This document shows, piece by piece, positions 2,226 to 31,580 of a stretch of 32,718 nt of DNA (positions are counted from its first letter, which is position 1; each line of letters begins with the position of its first letter). This DNA comes from a virus. The DNA is taken from the IMG/VR virus record IMGVR_UViG_3300042469_000063, positions 1-32,718 of that record, one strand, 5' to 3'. Below the pieces are notes generated by a model. The model saw nothing but the letters and a program-made list of their open reading frames with translations, had not been told where the DNA came from and did not search any database. Position numbers and translations under genes: made by a program.

Positions 2226-2519
2226 CTAATACATTTTAATTGTTATTTTACCAGTTTTTGCTACTGGTACTTCTTTTACTTTAATCTTCAAATCTACTTC
2301 AGTTAATTCAGTATCTAATTTTAATATAGAATTAAAAGCATTTTGTATTTCATTCCAATTTGCTTCATTTTCCATTTCATTTAATATATACAAATATTGT
2401 AACTTTTCTTGCAAGTCTTTAAAATAACTTATTAACATACTGTTATCTGAATTTAATACAAGCATTCTTGCAGCAGATATTTGTAATTCTTCTATGTGGT
2501 GTTTCATTGTATCTTTCAT
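2226..2519 (-). CDS. Hypothetical protein, 97 aa
   Basis: A mostly helical protein with an acidic middle (NEMENEANWNEIQNAF) and a basic C terminus (KVKEVPVAKTGKITIKMY). There are no membrane segments and no recognised motif. The start codon overlaps the stop of the methyltransferase gene as ATGA, so the two are probably translationally coupled. A methyltransferase partner role is conceivable from coupling alone, but no sequence feature supports it. An alternative ATG lies four codons downstream. Confidence 0.7.
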   Translation of the reverse strand: MKDTMKHHIEELQISAARMLVLNSDNSMLISYFKDLQEKLQYLYILNEMENEANWNEIQNAFNSILKLDTELTEVDLKIKVKEVPVAKTGKITIKMY

Positions 2520-3370
2520 TGTTTTATAAATTTAAATATATGTTCTATAATTGGTAAAGTCCAACCATCGCCAAGTAAGCTTCCTGCTTTTGCAGTTGTA
2601 AGAATATCGCAATAATTATCGGGAAAACCTTGTAACCTACACATTTCAATTTTATTTACTGTTCTTACTTTTTCGTTTTCTTTAATTAAAGTAATCATTC
2701 CAGTAGTTTCGTTTCTATGTAATAAATATTCTTGTTTTGCTTGTTCAGTTGCACCACTACCAGTATTTAAACAAGTATGTTTATCTGTATCAACACATCC
2801 ACTTGTTATAATATCTTTAAACATTATTCCTTTGTCTTTAGGTTGTGGAATATCAGTAATTATATCACCAAACATTCCATCTTGTCTTGTTCTTATATTA
2901 CTCCAATAATACCTATCCCTTAATTGTGCAGTAACAAGCGAACTATTAATTCTAACTGGATAAACTCCTAAAGCCCTACTCATAATTCCAACATCTAATT
3001 TTGCTGCACTCCCTACATTTTCTTGAAGAAATAATACTTTAGGATTTAATGATTTTATATGTTCTAATATTTCTACAAACACAAAAAATAAACTACTTCT
3101 ACTTCCATTAATTCCCGCTCTTTTACCAGCAGCAGATAAATCTTGACAGGGTGAACCTGATAAAACTAAATTAATACTTTTCCAATCAATATTCCATTCT
3201 TTCCATTTTGTTACATCTCCAACTTGAATAGTATCTGGAAAATGGTATTGTGTTAATTCTATTGCATAAGGTTTAATTTCACTTGAATAATATTTATTTA
3301 CTTTAATACCTACATTTTCTAATGCTTGTCTGCCAGTATTCATTCCGTTAAATAGTGATAATACATTCAT
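2516..3370 (-). CDS. C5-cytosine DNA methyltransferase, 284 aa
   Basis: All main motifs of m5C methyltransferases can be seen in order. The AdoMet-binding motif I is LFNGMNTGRQALE (residues 6-18). Motif IV is SGSPCQDLS with the catalytic cysteine C75. Motif VI is QENVGSA (E117). Motif VIII is QLRDR (149-153). Motif IX is IEMCRLQGFPDNY, and motif X is GSLLGDGWTLPIIEHIF near the C terminus. The target recognition region between VIII and IX is short. It transfers a methyl group to C5 of cytosine in DNA at a site I cannot deduce. No cognate restriction gene adjoins it. In this genome it most likely supplies 5-methylcytosine to the TET/JBP dioxygenase at 29445-30311, as in phage cytosine hypermodification pathways. 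The gene ends in ATGA overlap with the next one. Confidence 0.93.
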   Translation of the reverse strand: MNVLSLFNGMNTGRQALENVGIKVNKYYSSEIKPYAIELTQYHFPDTIQVGDVTKWKEWNIDWKSINLVLSGSPCQDLSAAGKRAGINGSRSSLFFVFVEILEHIKSLNPKVLFLQENVGSAAKLDVGIMSRALGVYPVRINSSLVTAQLRDRYYWSNIRTRQDGMFGDIITDIPQPKDKGIMFKDIITSGCVDTDKHTCLNTGSGATEQAKQEYLLHRNETTGMITLIKENEKVRTVNKIEMCRLQGFPDNYCDILTTAKAGSLLGDGWTLPIIEHIFKFIKQ

Positions 3371-18634: not shown

Positions 18635-18765
18635 TCTCTTTTTATTTGTTTAAATGTTCTTGACCAAGTTGTTGGTAATTCATATTTACCTTTTGCAATT
18701 TCTATTGTTTCTGATTGTCCGTAATGCTCATCTAATTGTAGCATTTCAAGTATTAACTTTATCAT
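18616..18765 (-). CDS. Hypothetical protein between tail tip and tape measure genes, 49 aa
   Basis: A 49-residue frame (start MIKLILEMLQLDEHYG, end REWKTKK). Its ATG overlaps the TGA of the 867-residue gene as ATGA, and it runs 19 bases into the tape measure gene. The product has an acidic start and a basic C terminus with two tryptophans (TTWSRTF, KREWKTKK). Position just before the tape measure gene is where small tail assembly proteins occur, but no family is recognised. Confidence 0.6.
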   Translation of the reverse strand: MIKLILEMLQLDEHYGQSETIEIAKGKYELPTTWSRTFKQIKREWKTKK

Positions 18766-21365
18766 ATTCCAGTTTGTGTTACAATTATATTTTCAAGTTT
18801 TGCTGTTGAACCACCTATTTTATATTGTATTGTTATTAATTCAGTCCTATCTAATCCAGTTGTGTTTTCTGGAACTGTAACTGTTAATGTTATATCACTT
18901 ATATTATTACTTGGGTCACTATAAATCAAATATCCAGTCGAAGTTTTTACATTAAAACTATCATAATCATTTAAGTATATTTCTAAATCAAATGTTAATT
19001 CTTCTTTGTCTGTTTGAATTATATCCATACTTGCAAATCTATAACCTACTGTACTTGCTGCATCAACACCTCTGTAATCTGTTAATAGTTCTAAATCAGT
19101 TTCTCCAGTTGTTAAATCAGTAGTAAATGAATTTATAATATATCTTTTATTTCTTATTACTAATCTATCATTTAATGCAATTCCTAAAGGTATTCCAGCA
19201 CCATTTGTTACACTACTTCCTAATAAACTTGGTGGCAATAATGCTTTTGCTTTTACTAATCTTGTTTTTATGTTATAAAGATTATCTATAAAGTTTTTAT
19301 AGTGTCTAAAATACAATCCTTGTGGTGCTAATTGGTTTAACCAACTTGATTGTTCATTACCAAAATTCATTGTCATTAATTGAGAATGTGTAACATCTGT
19401 TGGCATATTATCGTATTCATTTGAGAAACGATTATAAGCATTTATTTGTGTTGCTGCCCCTACACTATTAGTTACATAAATTTGGTCTGTTCCAGTTAAA
19501 CCGGTTACTCTTTGACTTAAATAAATAAGCATAGGTTTTGGAATATAAGGTTTTTGGTCTTTGTCTATTAAAGTTGCAGTCTGAAATAATTTTCCTTGTT
19601 TTGGAACTTCAAATAAAACATTTTCAAATGGCAGTTTAATATCATAAGTAGAGTTCTCTGTAATCCTTTCTGAATTATAAATTAAGTCACCATAGTTTTG
19701 TTGGTATAAACCTTTATACGCTTCATTTAAGATGTTTTTACTCTCCTCATAAGTAAAGTTAATACTCTTGAATAACTTTGGCTTATTTATGCTCATTTCA
19801 TTTTCGTAAGTGTACTCTGTTATATCCAAAATCTTACCAGCATTGTAATACATTTCAAGTGGTAAAAACTCATAAGTATTATTCTGCCTTGGAATAATCA
19901 TTAAATTAAATGCTTTTATTATACCAGTTATAAAATCTATAATTTTCATATCTGGCATATAATTACCTATATTTATTATAGAACTTATATTATTAATTAA
20001 ATTTGTTATTACTCTAGATTGAGTTGTAACAAAATTACTAGTAGTATAATTAAAATATTGTTTTTGATAAAATAAAGATGCATTGTAAGTTAATGGAGAA
20101 GTCGCTGATAATTTAAAAGTATATCTATGATTTGCAGTTGGGTCATCTCTTCTTCTTACTCTATCAACTTGTATATCTTGAATTCCAGTTTGTGTAATTG
20201 TTGAAAGTAAAACCCCGTTTTTATATGTATATAAAACATAAGGAATAGTAGTAAAACCAGCATCTGGATTTACCCTAACAAATACTGTAAAATTTTGAGT
20301 GTTTCCACTTGAACTACCCCATCCCCAATTTGTTGTTAAAGTGTCTGTTGTTAAATTGAATTCTGGGAATGTTGGTGTATTAGGCGAAGAAGTTACAACA
20401 GAAGTAAAATTTAAATTTTCTGGCTGTGATATATATTCCATTTTTAAACTTGGCTTTAAATATAAATACAATTCAATCCATTGTTGTAAATTAAAAAAAC
20501 TTCCATTAAAATTAACTCCATATTTTGCTTCTATTCTTGCAAATATATTTTGTACTGTTATTGCTGGAAATAACTCATTCCATTTTATTGCCCCTCCTAC
20601 TGTAGTTATATCTGTTGGACTTCCATCTTGATAACTATATTTATTTGCGTTGCCTATTAAAGGATATCTAACATTAAAAAAACCAGTTATCCTATTTCTT
20701 ACCTCTGATGAAGTATAAATATGGTTAAAACTTGAAAAATCTAAACTTTGTAGTTTATCATCTTTTATTATATCTTTTAACTGCACCAAGTTTCCATAAA
20801 ACGTAACTGTATAACTTTCAATAAATCCGTCTTTTTTGTCTGCTTTTTCTAATTGAATAGTTCCATCTTTAAATCTATGTGTGTTTACTTCGATATAAGC
20901 ATCGTATCTCATTCTATGGTCAAAACCATTATCGATACTGCTTTCGTACCAATGCGATAAAATTTGATTATTATTCTTTGATGCTGGAATAGTAAAAGAC
21001 TGCGTGTAGTCTGTATATAATTTACCTATGTCGTTTGCGTTCCCAATTTGTGAAGTGATGCTAATTTTTTCATCTTTGAATAAATCTAACCTTTGGTATT
21101 CACTTTTGTATATTTCAAAATCATCTCCATTCGCTAATGGTATTGCAGTTTCAAAATCTATTTTAGTAGTATCGTTACCAGTTATCCAAGCTATTAATCC
21201 AGTGCTATCGCCAGAAATAATTTTAACATAATGACCTAAATATTGATTTGTGGTCATTGTCAAATTAGTACTCATTCCCAAAAATGGCGATGAATTATTT
21301 GCAGTAGTTTTGCCAGCAATTTCTAAAGTATTTTTCTTAATATAAACTTCTGTACTTAATTTCAT
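18762..21365 (-). CDS. Large tail-tip protein with C-terminal BACON-like domain, 867 aa
   Basis: N-terminal region contains RLDLFKDEKISITSQIGNANDIGKLYTDYTQSFTIPASKNNN (about 92-135), typical of a large tail protein found in Bacteroidetes phages. The middle (about 470-720) includes IDFITGIIKAFNLMIIPRQNNTYEFLPLEMYY, resembling tail hub proteins. The last 83 residues (785-867) resemble a BACON-like beta domain: LEIYLNDYDS, then LTVTVPENTTGLDRTELITIQY and a final IIVTQTGI. BACON domains in Bacteroidetes proteins and crAss-like phages are thought to bind glycans or mucin. It is probably part of the tail hub or tip. It is joined to the 356-residue gene by TAATG. Confidence 0.78.
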   Translation of the reverse strand: MKLSTEVYIKKNTLEIAGKTTANNSSPFLGMSTNLTMTTNQYLGHYVKIISGDSTGLIAWITGNDTTKIDFETAIPLANGDDFEIYKSEYQRLDLFKDEKISITSQIGNANDIGKLYTDYTQSFTIPASKNNNQILSHWYESSIDNGFDHRMRYDAYIEVNTHRFKDGTIQLEKADKKDGFIESYTVTFYGNLVQLKDIIKDDKLQSLDFSSFNHIYTSSEVRNRITGFFNVRYPLIGNANKYSYQDGSPTDITTVGGAIKWNELFPAITVQNIFARIEAKYGVNFNGSFFNLQQWIELYLYLKPSLKMEYISQPENLNFTSVVTSSPNTPTFPEFNLTTDTLTTNWGWGSSSGNTQNFTVFVRVNPDAGFTTIPYVLYTYKNGVLLSTITQTGIQDIQVDRVRRRDDPTANHRYTFKLSATSPLTYNASLFYQKQYFNYTTSNFVTTQSRVITNLINNISSIINIGNYMPDMKIIDFITGIIKAFNLMIIPRQNNTYEFLPLEMYYNAGKILDITEYTYENEMSINKPKLFKSINFTYEESKNILNEAYKGLYQQNYGDLIYNSERITENSTYDIKLPFENVLFEVPKQGKLFQTATLIDKDQKPYIPKPMLIYLSQRVTGLTGTDQIYVTNSVGAATQINAYNRFSNEYDNMPTDVTHSQLMTMNFGNEQSSWLNQLAPQGLYFRHYKNFIDNLYNIKTRLVKAKALLPPSLLGSSVTNGAGIPLGIALNDRLVIRNKRYIINSFTTDLTTGETDLELLTDYRGVDAASTVGYRFASMDIIQTDKEELTFDLEIYLNDYDSFNVKTSTGYLIYSDPSNNISDITLTVTVPENTTGLDRTELITIQYKIGGSTAKLENIIVTQTGI

Positions 21366-27469: not shown

Positions 27470-28006
27470 TTAAAGTTTAATGTTTCTATTCATTTTATAT
27501 AATGCTTGTAATCTTTCTACAATTATTTGCCATTGTTCTGTACCTTCTGTTTCTAATAGTAATTGTTGTATGTTGTTTACTATGTTGTAATTGTTTCTTG
27601 GTTTTTGTAGGTTAGTAATTGTTTCTTGCAAGTTTTCTATTTCATTTGATAGTTTCATTACATCTATTTGTAAACTTTGTATGTATTCATCTTTTGACAT
27701 ATCTAATATATGTTCTGGTGATGCATAATTTAATCTTTGCATTATTTGTTTTCTAAATAGTTTTAGTGTTGGATTAAACTGCTCAAACATATCATAGTTC
27801 TTTAATGAATGTAATACTGTTGCGTGGTCTTTTCCTACTGAAGCACCAATAGATTTTAAAGACTTCTTTTTATCTATTTGCTTTAATACTTTATAATAGA
27901 TTGCTCTTGCTTCTATTGTTTCTCTTTTGCGTGTAACTTCATTTATATCTACACCTGTTATTTCTTGTATTGCTTTTTTTAATTGTAATGTTATTTGCGT
28001 TTCCAT
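27470..28006 (-). CDS. Protein with DnaA domain IV-like DNA-binding region, 178 aa
   Basis: Residues 31-72 match DnaA domain IV: ARAIYYKVLKQ, then KSLKSIGASVGKDHATVLHSLKNY, with the GxDHATVxH signature that reads DnaA boxes. Residues 108-142 form a coiled coil (LQIDVMKLSNEIENLQETITNLQ) and the rest is helical. There is no AAA domain, so it is not a full initiator. It could bind phage origin or host DnaA boxes, or act as a replication or transcription regulator. It overlaps the 75-residue gene by 16 bases and lies just after the hypermodification genes. Confidence 0.8.
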   Translation of the reverse strand: METQITLQLKKAIQEITGVDINEVTRKRETIEARAIYYKVLKQIDKKKSLKSIGASVGKDHATVLHSLKNYDMFEQFNPTLKLFRKQIMQRLNYASPEHILDMSKDEYIQSLQIDVMKLSNEIENLQETITNLQKPRNNYNIVNNIQQLLLETEGTEQWQIIVERLQALYKMNRNIKL

Positions 28007-28218
28007 CTAATTTTTATTTTTTGTTTTTTACTTTGTTTTATTAATTCTGTTAGTACATTAAATAATACTATTTCTAATGCTAAATGTATTCCCTGACATT
28101 CTTCGTATAATTCTTCAGCTTCATATTCTTTTAATATAAACCTTATTTGTTCAATAGTCATCCCTTGTTCTATTTCATATAAGGTAATATTATAGTGTTC
28201 TGTTGCTATATCATTCAT
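27991..28218 (-). CDS. Hypothetical protein, 75 aa
   Basis: N-terminal half acidic and helical (LYEIEQGMTIEQIRFILKEYEAEELYEECQGIH), C-terminal half hydrophobic helix then strongly basic tail (KQSKKQKIKIRWKRK). Its ATG shares one base with the TAA of the glycosyltransferase gene (TAATG). It may be an accessory protein for the modification genes or a DNA-binding regulator. Family not recognised. Confidence 0.62.
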   Translation of the reverse strand: MNDIATEHYNITLYEIEQGMTIEQIRFILKEYEAEELYEECQGIHLALEIVLFNVLTELIKQSKKQKIKIRWKRK

Positions 28219-28985
28219 TAAAACAATGTAGTTTGATTTGTATTAATGTTTGCCCAATGTATTTTTAAATCATTCCTTCCATCTGGTTTTATTATATGTT
28301 GGCATATATTATCACCCCATAATTCAACCATTTTTAAACACATATCTCTTTCAATACCATTAACATCATAAGCTATTTCTTTTAAGCCACCTTTGTTACT
28401 TCCATTAGGTGGTACACTAAAAGCGTAAAATGTATCCCTACCAGTTTTATTTCCTGATTTTATTGTTTTTATACAAAAGTCCCTATCTACTTTTAGTTTT
28501 AAATCTAAATTATATCTTAAACCCATTGTTAATTTATTATCAATATAAACTGCAGAGTCACAAAATGTATTTTCAATTAACCTTTTATTTGCTGACCAAG
28601 CATATTGCCTATATTCTAAAGCACCTACTGCAATATTATTTTCTTTAAAAAAATTTTTTGAATTATTAAGGCAAGTTTCAAAATCAATTCTATTTAATTT
28701 AGTACCTTCTCTTTCATAAAAATAACTAATATCATCATCTAAAACCCAATAATCTTTTACATTATCTTCTTCTGATTTTATTTTAATAAAGTTTCTTGCA
28801 TAAGCTAAACCTTTATTGTTTTCTGGTAATTGCAATATATTAAAATCATTATATTTATTTTTATATTGTTGGTATTCTTGTGGTTCTACAATTATATAAA
28901 GATTTTTATAATTACCTATTAAATCAACTGTTTTGCAGTTATCATACCTTCCTTTAGTTGTTACATATATAAATAATTCTTCCAT
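28218..28985 (-). CDS. TET-associated glycosyltransferase (TAGT), 255 aa
   Basis: A GT-A type fold with TTKGRYDNCKTVDLI at residues 9-23, IIVEPQEYQQY (31-41), NNKGLAYARNF (56-66) and the metal-binding YWVLDDDIS, D83-D85. Later parts include a helical acceptor region and IHWANINTN at the C terminus. This pattern corresponds to the glycosyltransferases found next to TET/JBP genes in phages. They transfer a sugar from a nucleotide-sugar donor to 5-hydroxymethyl pyrimidines in DNA. The dioxygenase lies two genes upstream, and the operon ends in the DnaA-like region. Sugar and donor cannot be deduced. Confidence 0.83.
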   Translation of the reverse strand: MEELFIYVTTKGRYDNCKTVDLIGNYKNLYIIVEPQEYQQYKNKYNDFNILQLPENNKGLAYARNFIKIKSEEDNVKDYWVLDDDISYFYEREGTKLNRIDFETCLNNSKNFFKENNIAVGALEYRQYAWSANKRLIENTFCDSAVYIDNKLTMGLRYNLDLKLKVDRDFCIKTIKSGNKTGRDTFYAFSVPPNGSNKGGLKEIAYDVNGIERDMCLKMVELWGDNICQHIIKPDGRNDLKIHWANINTNQTTLF

Positions 28986-28986
28986 A

Positions 28987-29442
28987 TTAAAATAATTTAG
29001 TTTGTTTAGTTATTTTTTCAATACATATCCTATCTGCTTGTTTCTTACTTAATAAAAAACCTTTTTCAATACCATTCTTAATACTTTTAAACCCATCGAA
29101 TAATGCTGGTTTATTAAATTCATAATACTGCTTTAATTGTTTTGTTGAAAATATATAAAACAAATCTTCATTACCTATAACATATAACCAACTTTGATTT
29201 TTATAAATACCTGACTCATATTTTGTATAACCATAATCACGTTCAACACTTATAAATAAATTACCAGTTTCAATAAACCTTTGGTCATTTTTTATTTCAA
29301 TACCTTGTCTATTTTCACCTTTTTCAATTTGTTCTTTTAATAAAGTATAATGGCTTAAGTTAATGTTTTTTTGTTTACTAAACCAATCCATAATAAATGA
29401 TTCAAATTCGTACCCTTTTTGTAGTTTAATTGTTGTTTCCAT
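28987..29442 (-). CDS. PD-(D/E)XK-like protein between dioxygenase and glycosyltransferase, 151 aa
   Basis: Around residues 41-53 it has KGENRQGIEIKND, that is E43-x5-E49-x-K51, the active-site pattern of the restriction-endonuclease fold. Upstream is the helix GYEFESFIMDWFS with E12 and E14. Downstream are GNLFISVERDY, SGIYKNQSWLYVIGNEDLFYIFSTKQL and a helical end. I recall similar phage proteins without a named function. It starts one base after the glycosyltransferase gene start side and two bases from the dioxygenase gene. It might be a nuclease that cuts unmodified or differently modified DNA, or a catalytically altered recognition module for the modification enzymes. Confidence 0.65.
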   Translation of the reverse strand: METTIKLQKGYEFESFIMDWFSKQKNINLSHYTLLKEQIEKGENRQGIEIKNDQRFIETGNLFISVERDYGYTKYESGIYKNQSWLYVIGNEDLFYIFSTKQLKQYYEFNKPALFDGFKSIKNGIEKGFLLSKKQADRICIEKITKQTKLF

Positions 29443-29444
29443 AT

Positions 29445-30311
29445 TTATAAATTTAAGTAACCTGTTTTATCCATTTTCATATTTAATAATTCTTCTGCTG
29501 GTTGTTTGCATTTATACATATATTCTCTATAATATAACACAAAACTAATGCGTAAGAAGTTTTCATCTGTATTTATAAAATCTGTATTTCCGTGCCATTG
29601 ATGCACATCAACAAAAAGCATATCAGTATTTTGTAAATCTATTGCTACTTTATATTGTGGTAAACAAAAATAACCACCAGTCCAATCGCCTTCACGATAT
29701 GCAATTAAATTACCAAAACCATCTGGATAATCACCAGCGTCTTGGTGTACTGCTGTTCTAAAATTTTTATTAACTGTTACAGTAGTAAATGAAGTATCAT
29801 CTATAATATAATTTTTATTTGTACCATCTGCTATTGCTTTTTGTTTTGCATAATGTGCTGGGCAAAGTTCTTTATATTTATTATCTACAAATTGTACAAA
29901 CGGAATGCCCTGTTTAAATTTATCAAAATAGTTTTTTGCAAATGCAGTTTTCCTACAATATTTAACCATAGCTGATGAGTCCATATAACCTACACTACCT
30001 GACTCTACTTTATTACCTACTGTTATATTACTAACTGAACCATCTTTACGAATACGTTTATGGCTGCTGCCAGAAGCATAACCTCTACTTTCAGTTACTT
30101 CTATACTATCTTTAAATGAATTTACACCCAACATTAATGTTTCTAATGGCATAGCATTTTTTCTAAATCTAAATAATAAATTACCATTTACATCATAACC
30201 ATCAGCATCTTCTGTAATTAATAAATCATAATTTTTTTCATTAAGGTATTTACCTTTTAATTTTTCTGTTTGTTCGTCAGTTAGTTGTTTTTTTAATTTA
30301 TAAGTTTCCAT
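29445..30311 (-). CDS. TET/JBP-family 2-oxoglutarate/Fe(II) dioxygenase, 288 aa
   Basis: The double-stranded beta-helix core runs from about residue 170 to 262. Iron ligands are H189 and D191 in FRTAVHQDAGD, and the distal H240 in VDVHQWHGNT. R254 in LRISFVLYYRE binds 2-oxoglutarate. Flanking motifs TTVTVNKNFRTA, GFGNLIAYREGDWTGGYFCLPQY and VAIDLQ match JBP1/JBP2-type enzymes closely. Phage TET/JBP enzymes oxidise the methyl group of 5-methylcytosine (or thymine) in DNA to hydroxymethyl. The methyltransferase at 2516-3370 is the likely source of substrate. The N-terminal 130 residues are a helical and strand-rich extension (MVKYCRKTAFAKNYF). It overlaps the 72-residue gene at 30298 by 14 bases. 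Confidence 0.92.
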   Translation of the reverse strand: METYKLKKQLTDEQTEKLKGKYLNEKNYDLLITEDADGYDVNGNLLFRFRKNAMPLETLMLGVNSFKDSIEVTESRGYASGSSHKRIRKDGSVSNITVGNKVESGSVGYMDSSAMVKYCRKTAFAKNYFDKFKQGIPFVQFVDNKYKELCPAHYAKQKAIADGTNKNYIIDDTSFTTVTVNKNFRTAVHQDAGDYPDGFGNLIAYREGDWTGGYFCLPQYKVAIDLQNTDMLFVDVHQWHGNTDFINTDENFLRISFVLYYREYMYKCKQPAEELLNMKMDKTGYLNL

Positions 30312-30516
30312 ATCTTTCTTTTAAAATAATTAATAATAAATCACTTAAATTTCCTTTTTGCTGGTATTCTAAACCAAATTCTTTTTTAATACCTTTTTTG
30401 CATAATGCTTTAAATTCTTTTAATTCTTCTGTACTAAAATATAACAATGTAGTTGTAATTTCAGTATTGTCTATTGGTGAATTATCTACACCCCAATCGT
30501 CTTCAAATAGTTTCAT
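30298..30516 (-). CDS. Hypothetical acidic protein of the dioxygenase operon, 72 aa
   Basis: Starts MKLFEDDWGVDNSPIDNTEITTTLLYFSTEELKEFKALCKKGIKKEFG and ends NLSDLLLIILKERYGNL. The N terminus is acidic with a DDWG motif, the rest helical and charged. It overlaps the dioxygenase gene by 14 bases, indicating coupled translation. A partner of the dioxygenase or a small regulator is possible. The DDWG and YFSTEELKEFK stretches look conserved-like, but I do not recognise the family. Confidence 0.65.
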   Translation of the reverse strand: MKLFEDDWGVDNSPIDNTEITTTLLYFSTEELKEFKALCKKGIKKEFGLEYQQKGNLSDLLLIILKERYGNL

Positions 30517-30765: not shown

Positions 30766-30816
30766 TAAAAGTATTATTTAATTTAATTATATAAAATTAA
30801 TTAACATTTTTTTAAC
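30766..30816 (-). promoter_or_regulatory. Putative promoter of the hypermodification cassette with repeated 16-mer
   Basis: The 16-mer TTAACATTTTTTTAAC at 30801-30816 is identical to 32257-32272. About 25 bases downstream in the direction of transcription the minus strand has TACTTTTA (30773-30766), one mismatch from TAnnTTTG. This suggests a separately controlled start for the cassette. Confidence 0.45.
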
Positions 30817-31580
30817 TATAAAATCCCTCTTAAAACATACTGGTTTAAATCCATATCTTCTTCACCAAAGAAGTATTTATAGTTAGATATTGCTTGTTCT
30901 AACTTTGCTTCACCTTTAGCATAAAATTCATCACTACATTCAAAGATTGCTATATCTAAACTACCTTTGTCTATTGCAACAAAAAGAAAGTCATCAACAT
31001 CAAACATCTTTTTATATAAATATGCTTGTAAATCATAGCTATATTTGTCAGCACTATATCTAAAGTCTTTAACACCTGTTGTAGTTTTTAAATCTATAAT
31101 CATATTTGGTTTTAATATATCTGCTTTTGCTCTAAATGGTATTCCATCAATCATTTCAATAGCTGGTATTTCAGTTTGTGATTTACTCATTAAAGATACA
31201 ACTTCATTGTTTTTCATTAATGCATCAGTTAATCTTTCAGCATCATTGTATTCTTTTCTTGTGTATACTTCTAAACCTTGTTCTTTAGCCAGTTTGTATT
31301 CTTTTCCAGCTTTAGTTGCTACATCTACAATAACTAAATCATTTAATTTGTGTGGTTCTAAAATCATTGTGTGGAATAGTTTACCATCACGTAATGCTTG
31401 GCTTTCATCTGAACCATATTGTGTAACGTATTTATAAGTTTTAGGTGAACTAATAAGCATTTTAGCTGATGAACTACTTAATGCGTTTTTACCTAAATAA
31501 CCATAGTAGAAACCATCATCATACATATTATCTAATAGTTCTTGTTTATTCCATTGTTTGTTGTCAAATGTTGTTATCAT
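30816..31580 (-). CDS. RecE-like / PDDEXK exodeoxyribonuclease, 254 aa
   Basis: RecE/DUF3799-type nuclease. ISSPKTYKYVTQYGSDES (44-61) and ALRDGKLFHTMILEP with H70 form the N-terminal signature. The catalytic core has IPFRAKADIL with D154, MIIDLKTT with D163 and K165, and YSYDLQAYLYKKMF with Q185 (181-194). Such enzymes resect double-strand ends 5' to 3' and give the single strand to an annealing recombinase. The likely partner here is ERF at 4615-5184. The stop codon overlaps the repeated 16-mer by one base. Confidence 0.88.
   Translation of the reverse strand: MITTFDNKQWNKQELLDNMYDDGFYYGYLGKNALSSSSAKMLISSPKTYKYVTQYGSDESQALRDGKLFHTMILEPHKLNDLVIVDVATKAGKEYKLAKEQGLEVYTRKEYNDAERLTDALMKNNEVVSLMSKSQTEIPAIEMIDGIPFRAKADILKPNMIIDLKTTTGVKDFRYSADKYSYDLQAYLYKKMFDVDDFLFVAIDKGSLDIAIFECSDEFYAKGEAKLEQAISNYKYFFGEEDMDLNQYVLRGIL

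Follow-up and report, generated by a model that had tools for sequence, protein, structure and literature searches.

Why should a small nuclease-like gene stand between two genes for DNA hypermodification enzymes in a phage genome? The question is raised by a 151-aa open reading frame (ORF; positions 28987 to 29442, minus strand, ATG start) in a 32,718-nt stretch of viral DNA from IMG/VR, which is called the window here. The ORF, which encodes a putative nuclease and is hereafter called the nuclease, is separated by 2 nt from an upstream TET/JBP dioxygenase gene (29445 to 30311, minus strand; Tet_JBP, PF12851, E = 1e-22) and by 1 nt from a downstream TAGT glycosyltransferase gene (28218 to 28985, minus strand; PF20691, E = 4e-20). 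These coordinates and family matches agree with the original prediction for this DNA, which had described an ORF squeezed between two hypermodification genes with gaps of one or two bases. The translation reads G42-E43-N-R-Q-G-I-E49-I-K51-N-D53, and the ENRQGIEIKND pattern on which that prediction was built is found with E43, E49 and K51 at the positions it had given.

Around this cassette, a conserved 72-aa ORF without a family match (30298 to 30516, minus strand) overlaps the start of TET and is found ahead of TET in almost every locus, and a DUF3799/exonuclease VIII-like PD-(D/E)XK exonuclease is encoded upstream (30816 to 31580, minus strand). Adjoining the cassette, positions 27470 to 28006 encode a protein with a DnaA C-terminal DNA-binding domain (PF08299, E = 2.4e-9), a possible phage replication initiator. 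Elsewhere in the window, an 867-aa protein (18762 to 21365) carries a weak, below-cutoff match to a C-terminal BACON domain (PF13004), which would fit a Bacteroidota host.

Conservation and predicted fold of the nuclease family

A pattern-based family scan, together with earlier scans, gave 86 sequences, which were dereplicated at 90% identity to 49 clusters; these surveys cover IMG/VR fragments and relatives similar enough for pattern detection. Two alternative patterns were used, one including GENxQG[IV]E and the second holding neither E43 nor E49, and members caught solely by the second still keep both residues. E43, E49, K51, G42 and G78 are present in 49/49 clusters, Q38 in 48 and D53 in 47, with the proviso that some of these residues were written into the scan patterns. 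The original prediction had staked itself on homologues retaining E49 and K51, as every cluster does. Comparison of the window nuclease with 17 relatives gave dN/dS values of 0.07 to 0.22 (0.06 to 0.09 for TET), ratios that indicate purifying selection.

Database searches returned little. Pfam-A gave no plausible match among the 49 members (one stray Tospovirus hit), NCBIfam and PADLOC gave nothing for the nuclease, and no relative was detected when solved structures were searched by sequence. The sole family match of the window nuclease was phrog_13596 (PHROG 13596, function unknown; E = 5.8e-6), whose HMM matches 44 of the 49 members at E ≤ 1e-3. Profiles of the TET-linked clade described below detected no relative in 84,980 bacterial and archaeal genomes, and among cultured phages only distant phrog_13596 relatives were found, with no close ones.

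An AlphaFold2 model built from the 49 sequences reached a pLDDT of 91.2 and a pTM of 0.84; an earlier model from 26 sequences (pLDDT 82.6) pointed the same way, if less distinctly. In the model, a long helix (residues 2 to 25) and a short helix (35 to 41) are followed by a strand (48 to 52) bearing E49 and K51, by strands 61 to 69, 86 to 90 and 94 to 99, by a helix (100 to 110), and by further strands and a helix. The conserved alpha/beta core and the pairing of an acidic residue (E43) with an ExK motif on a core strand are both characteristic of PD-(D/E)XK enzymes. When the model was aligned by VIA-align with the structures on Foldseek's list, the best match was I-Ssp6803I (Z = 8.0, 3.0 Å, 114 residues, 12% identity), followed by Eco15I and HinP1I (6.5 each), D212 and Hjc (6.2 each), MspI, RecU and PvuII (5.8 each), and HhaI and EcoRV (5.1 each). 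Nearly all of the best 25 matches belong to the PD-(D/E)XK superfamily, with modest single Z values, and Foldseek by itself was weak (best E = 0.08). I-Ssp6803I, the nearest structure, is a PD-(D/E)XK homing endonuclease and, unlike the nuclease, an intron homing enzyme. The restriction-endonuclease fold that the original prediction had proposed, and for which it had asked for structure prediction and a fold search, is thus supported by the model. Taken together, the conserved E43, E49 and K51, the low dN/dS and the predicted PD-(D/E)XK fold argue that the initial observation was more than chance.

The nuclease gene follows a TET or an MT-A70 gene

The family comprises two clades, one linked to TET (25 clusters) and one linked to MT-A70 (23 clusters, including L126), and a single cluster (L140) has neither partner. 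The nuclease lies directly downstream of a TET or MT-A70 gene in 48/49 clusters, so that an endonuclease gene adjoins a modification gene as in restriction-modification (R-M) pairs; linkage to modification genes elsewhere, on which the original prediction depended, is borne out. Within the TET clade, TET is directly upstream in 63 of 64 loci, the remaining locus beginning at a contig edge, although some contigs contribute more than one locus, which makes the 25 clusters the better basis for counting. In the MT-A70 clade, the nuclease gene stands directly behind a ParB-MT-A70 gene (PF05063, E = 1e-21 to 2e-26 in complete genes), usually with overlapping reading frames. The TET clade is monophyletic in the family tree (100/99), which suggests that the partner was switched once and then long retained.

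The slot behind the nuclease is filled differently from locus to locus: by TAGT, by divergent TAGT-like glycosyltransferases, by a DXD glycosyltransferase, by a P-loop NTPase (possibly a kinase) or by ADDT (PF18724, amino acid:DNA transferase). Because this slot varies while TET is constant, the nuclease goes with TET and not with TAGT; of the repeated TET/TAGT linkage that had been anticipated, the TET part stands and the TAGT part does not. At one locus (L002:3397-3942) the TAGT slot holds a 182-aa P-loop protein (GNCGVGKT) of no clear family that ends in QQSLF and may be a base kinase.

The window also encodes a C5-cytosine methyltransferase (2516 to 3370, minus strand; PF00145, E = 7.9e-29), a possible source of the TET substrate, so a route from 5mC through 5hmC to glycosyl-5hmC is plausible here. 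Presence of such a methyltransferase was rejected as an explanation of the linkage: among 23 related records, which include many fragments, PF00145 was detected in just 2, and this rarity points to TET as the linked gene. Where the partner is a P-loop NTPase or ADDT, the end product may be a different one.

Beside TET, the nuclease is optional. Loci retrieved with TET as the query contain the nuclease in 17 cases and lack it in 25 (n = 42); L056 encodes a 99%-identical TET with the glycosyltransferase immediately next and no nuclease, and the cultured Nonlabens phage P12024L has the order TET-TAGT-MTase, likewise without it. TET can therefore do without the nuclease. The MT-A70 clade, the optional nuclease, the variable gene behind it and the clamp-type tail described below all go beyond the original prediction.

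Two further arrangements were seen behind or near TET. At L084:5861-7739, the places of the nuclease and glycosyltransferase are taken by a radical-SAM-like protein and by one of unknown family (309 aa), both of which end in QxxLF. Four nuclease-less loci (L070:6701-7162, L090:2428-2943, L091:2436-2632 and L104:4001-4462) encode a small protein (154 to 172 aa) near TET with a D..D...E[IF]K pattern (GDIDF..AEIK). This protein matches no family and does not end in QxxLF, and a scan for it added just one locus; by its motif it is possibly a second nuclease type.

Proteins of the TET cassette share a clamp-type C-terminal tail

The nuclease ends in QTKLF (28987 to 29004 with the stop codon, minus strand), which matches QxxLF, the bacterial sliding-clamp-binding consensus, whose copy in PolC is also C-terminal (PMC12309361). 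Its position at the C terminus, where the model falls to a pLDDT of about 62, is accessible. Of 50 coding-strand ORFs in the window, only the nuclease and TAGT (QTTLF) end in QxxL[FLV]. Across TET loci, the tail is found in 32/36 nucleases (35/36 when near variants and the hexapeptide form are counted), 25/26 TAGTs, 23/23 members of three other glycosyltransferase groups, 4/4 P-loop NTPases and the one ADDT, compared with 0/49 TETs and 9/770 remaining ORFs. For the nuclease tail, Fisher's test gave a p of about 1e-44, a descriptive value since the sequences are related. Six of the nine other tailed ORFs are modification-type enzymes, several of them assigned from sequence motifs alone: three C5-MTase-like proteins, one N6/N4-type MTase, a radical-SAM protein and its neighboring slot gene. 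In P12024L, TAGT ends in QLEIF and the MTase in QQTLF. TET C termini have a conserved ending of their own, K.GYLTL (e.g., 29445 to 29465), in nearly all of the 49 copies, without QxxLF.

The tail separates the two nuclease clades, being present in 24/25 TET-clade clusters (a few in near-variant or hexapeptide form) and in 0/22 MT-A70-clade clusters, a distribution suggesting that the tail was acquired on joining the TET cassette. DNA-level sharing was rejected as its origin, as the L codon varies (TTA, CTA, TTG, CTT or CTG); this variation argues for selection on the tail peptide. No phage clamp gene turned up in 19 records, of which many are incomplete, so the tail is presumed to bind the clamp of the host. 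Judged by its sequence, the QTKLF tail probably docks the nuclease on the host sliding clamp, as would the tails of the modification enzymes, which are unrelated to it. A literature search found no described phage clamp-binding modification cassette, and the ORF may have been mentioned earlier in papers on TET gene clusters. The tail could be used to search sequences for phage DNA-modifying enzymes not yet recognized, and it offers a cheap, direct test of enzyme action at the replication fork.

A putative restriction partner for phage DNA modification

With its catalytic residues intact, a modifying partner of either of two chemistries, and a partner that can dispense with it, the nuclease has the appearance of the restriction enzyme in an R-M pair; being optional beside TET, it resembles a restriction gene and not an essential modification subunit. 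We therefore favor, at an even chance, the reading that it is a PD-(D/E)XK endonuclease that forms the restriction half of a phage modification and restriction pair, would cut unmarked DNA and, in the TET clade, would be docked on the clamp. Starting from what was computed (the gene, its fold and residues, the linkage and the tail motif), we infer cleavage, its dependence on modification, its target and clamp binding as follows. The MTase, TET and glycosyltransferase would mark phage DNA, and the nuclease would cut DNA without the mark, most likely the host chromosome or the DNA of a coinfecting phage. In the TET clade, the tail would hold the nuclease on the host clamp and bring it to replication forks, where unmodified host or rival forks would be broken and hemi-modified phage forks spared. 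A broader version is a tentative possibility: the nuclease, the methyltransferase and the glycosyltransferase (or another tailoring enzyme) would all sit on the host clamp through the shared C-terminal QxxLF, so that the fork both marks DNA and cuts what is unmarked, with self and non-self read during replication and TET hypermodification being protective.

Several points weigh against the restriction reading. Chief among them, distant phrog_13596 relatives in Pelagibacter phages lack an adjoining modification gene, which suggests a modification-independent role in the wider family. A clamp-bound nuclease could also harm nascent phage DNA, and C5-MTase genes, the possible source of a TET substrate, are rare in the related records. 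Homologous to the nuclease, phrog_13596 shares the IE[IV]K.D...TGN motif region and differs in having neither GENxQG (no equivalent of E43 is evident) nor QxxLF. In T7-like Pelagibacter podophages, such relatives, likely also PD-(D/E)XK proteins and annotated as hypothetical or left unannotated, are encoded with a DNA polymerase gene on one side and an exonuclease gene on the other (L099:4986-5390, L101:4001-4351, L102:3959-4336 and L108:2974-3342). In phage C75C1 (L015:5031-6823), the gene for a distant relative comes after an exonuclease gene and shares bases with a gene for a C5-cytosine methyltransferase.

A role in replication or recombination is thus possible, and the strongest rival, which we nevertheless consider unlikely, is a clamp-tethered structure-specific nuclease (a Holliday junction resolvase or fork nuclease) blind to modification. 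The Pelagibacter phage setting fits it, as do the exonuclease gene near the cassette, recombination genes in some loci, and the presence of Hjc and RecU among the best structural matches, with Z values close to those of restriction enzymes. However, the sequence-specific enzymes I-Ssp6803I, HinP1I, MspI and PvuII match equally well or better, and neither the strict pairing with modification genes nor the existence of near-identical phages without the nuclease (L056) is expected of such an enzyme.

That members of both clades directly adjoin their modifying enzyme, with overlapping frames in the case of MT-A70, would also suit a noncatalytic accessory whose nuclease fold binds DNA and directs TET or MT-A70. 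Invariant active-site residues and the many TET loci without the nuclease, P12024L among them, make this quite improbable. MutH has the site spacing D-x6-E-x-K. The similarly short E43-x5-E49-x-K51 spacing, the clamp-type tail and the modification linkage recall a MutH-like nickase that would act on hemi-modified sites in mismatch repair or fork processing, cutting the new strand, which is unmodified, but the structural match to MutH is weak (Z = 2.3) and no MutS or MutL genes were noticed in the stretches read; we regard this as very improbable. A Type IV-like, modification-dependent nuclease aimed at rivals with a different modification is the least credible, hardly to be expected when the 151 aa are modeled as one fold with no reader domain and one family serves both MT-A70 (m6A-type) and TET pathways, even though the N-terminal domain of Eco15I bound to methylated DNA matches high and the variable gene behind the nuclease makes hypermodified rivals plausible.

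The restriction reading suggests that phage hypermodification, besides hiding phage DNA from the host, would license attack on unmodified DNA. A nuclease family absent from Pfam and tied to base-modification genes of two unrelated chemistries is now named.

Comparison with known viral systems

Clamp binding by a phage DNA-modifying enzyme has a precedent in T4, whose alpha-glucosyltransferase binds the gp45 sliding clamp (PMC13216743). T4 gp45 is phage encoded, whereas the TET loci, where no clamp gene was found, presumably rely on the host clamp. For attack on unmodified DNA, the T4 endonucleases II and IV (DenA and DenB) are cytosine specific, leave the modified phage DNA intact and initiate degradation of host DNA (PMC6071114). 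The likeness is one of function: the T4 enzymes are not paired behind a modification gene and have no TET pathway. DenA is a GIY-YIG enzyme, and both belong, as far as is known, to families other than that of the nuclease. Among eukaryotic viruses, chloroviruses carry neighboring genes for an MTase and a restriction enzyme and degrade host DNA (PMC7019647), and a marseillevirus R-M pair attacks rivals instead of host DNA (PMC7253447). These viruses use simple methylation, and the accounts consulted report no TET, glycosylation or clamp-type tail; what they would share with the nuclease locus is an endonuclease gene beside a modification gene and an attack on host or rival DNA.
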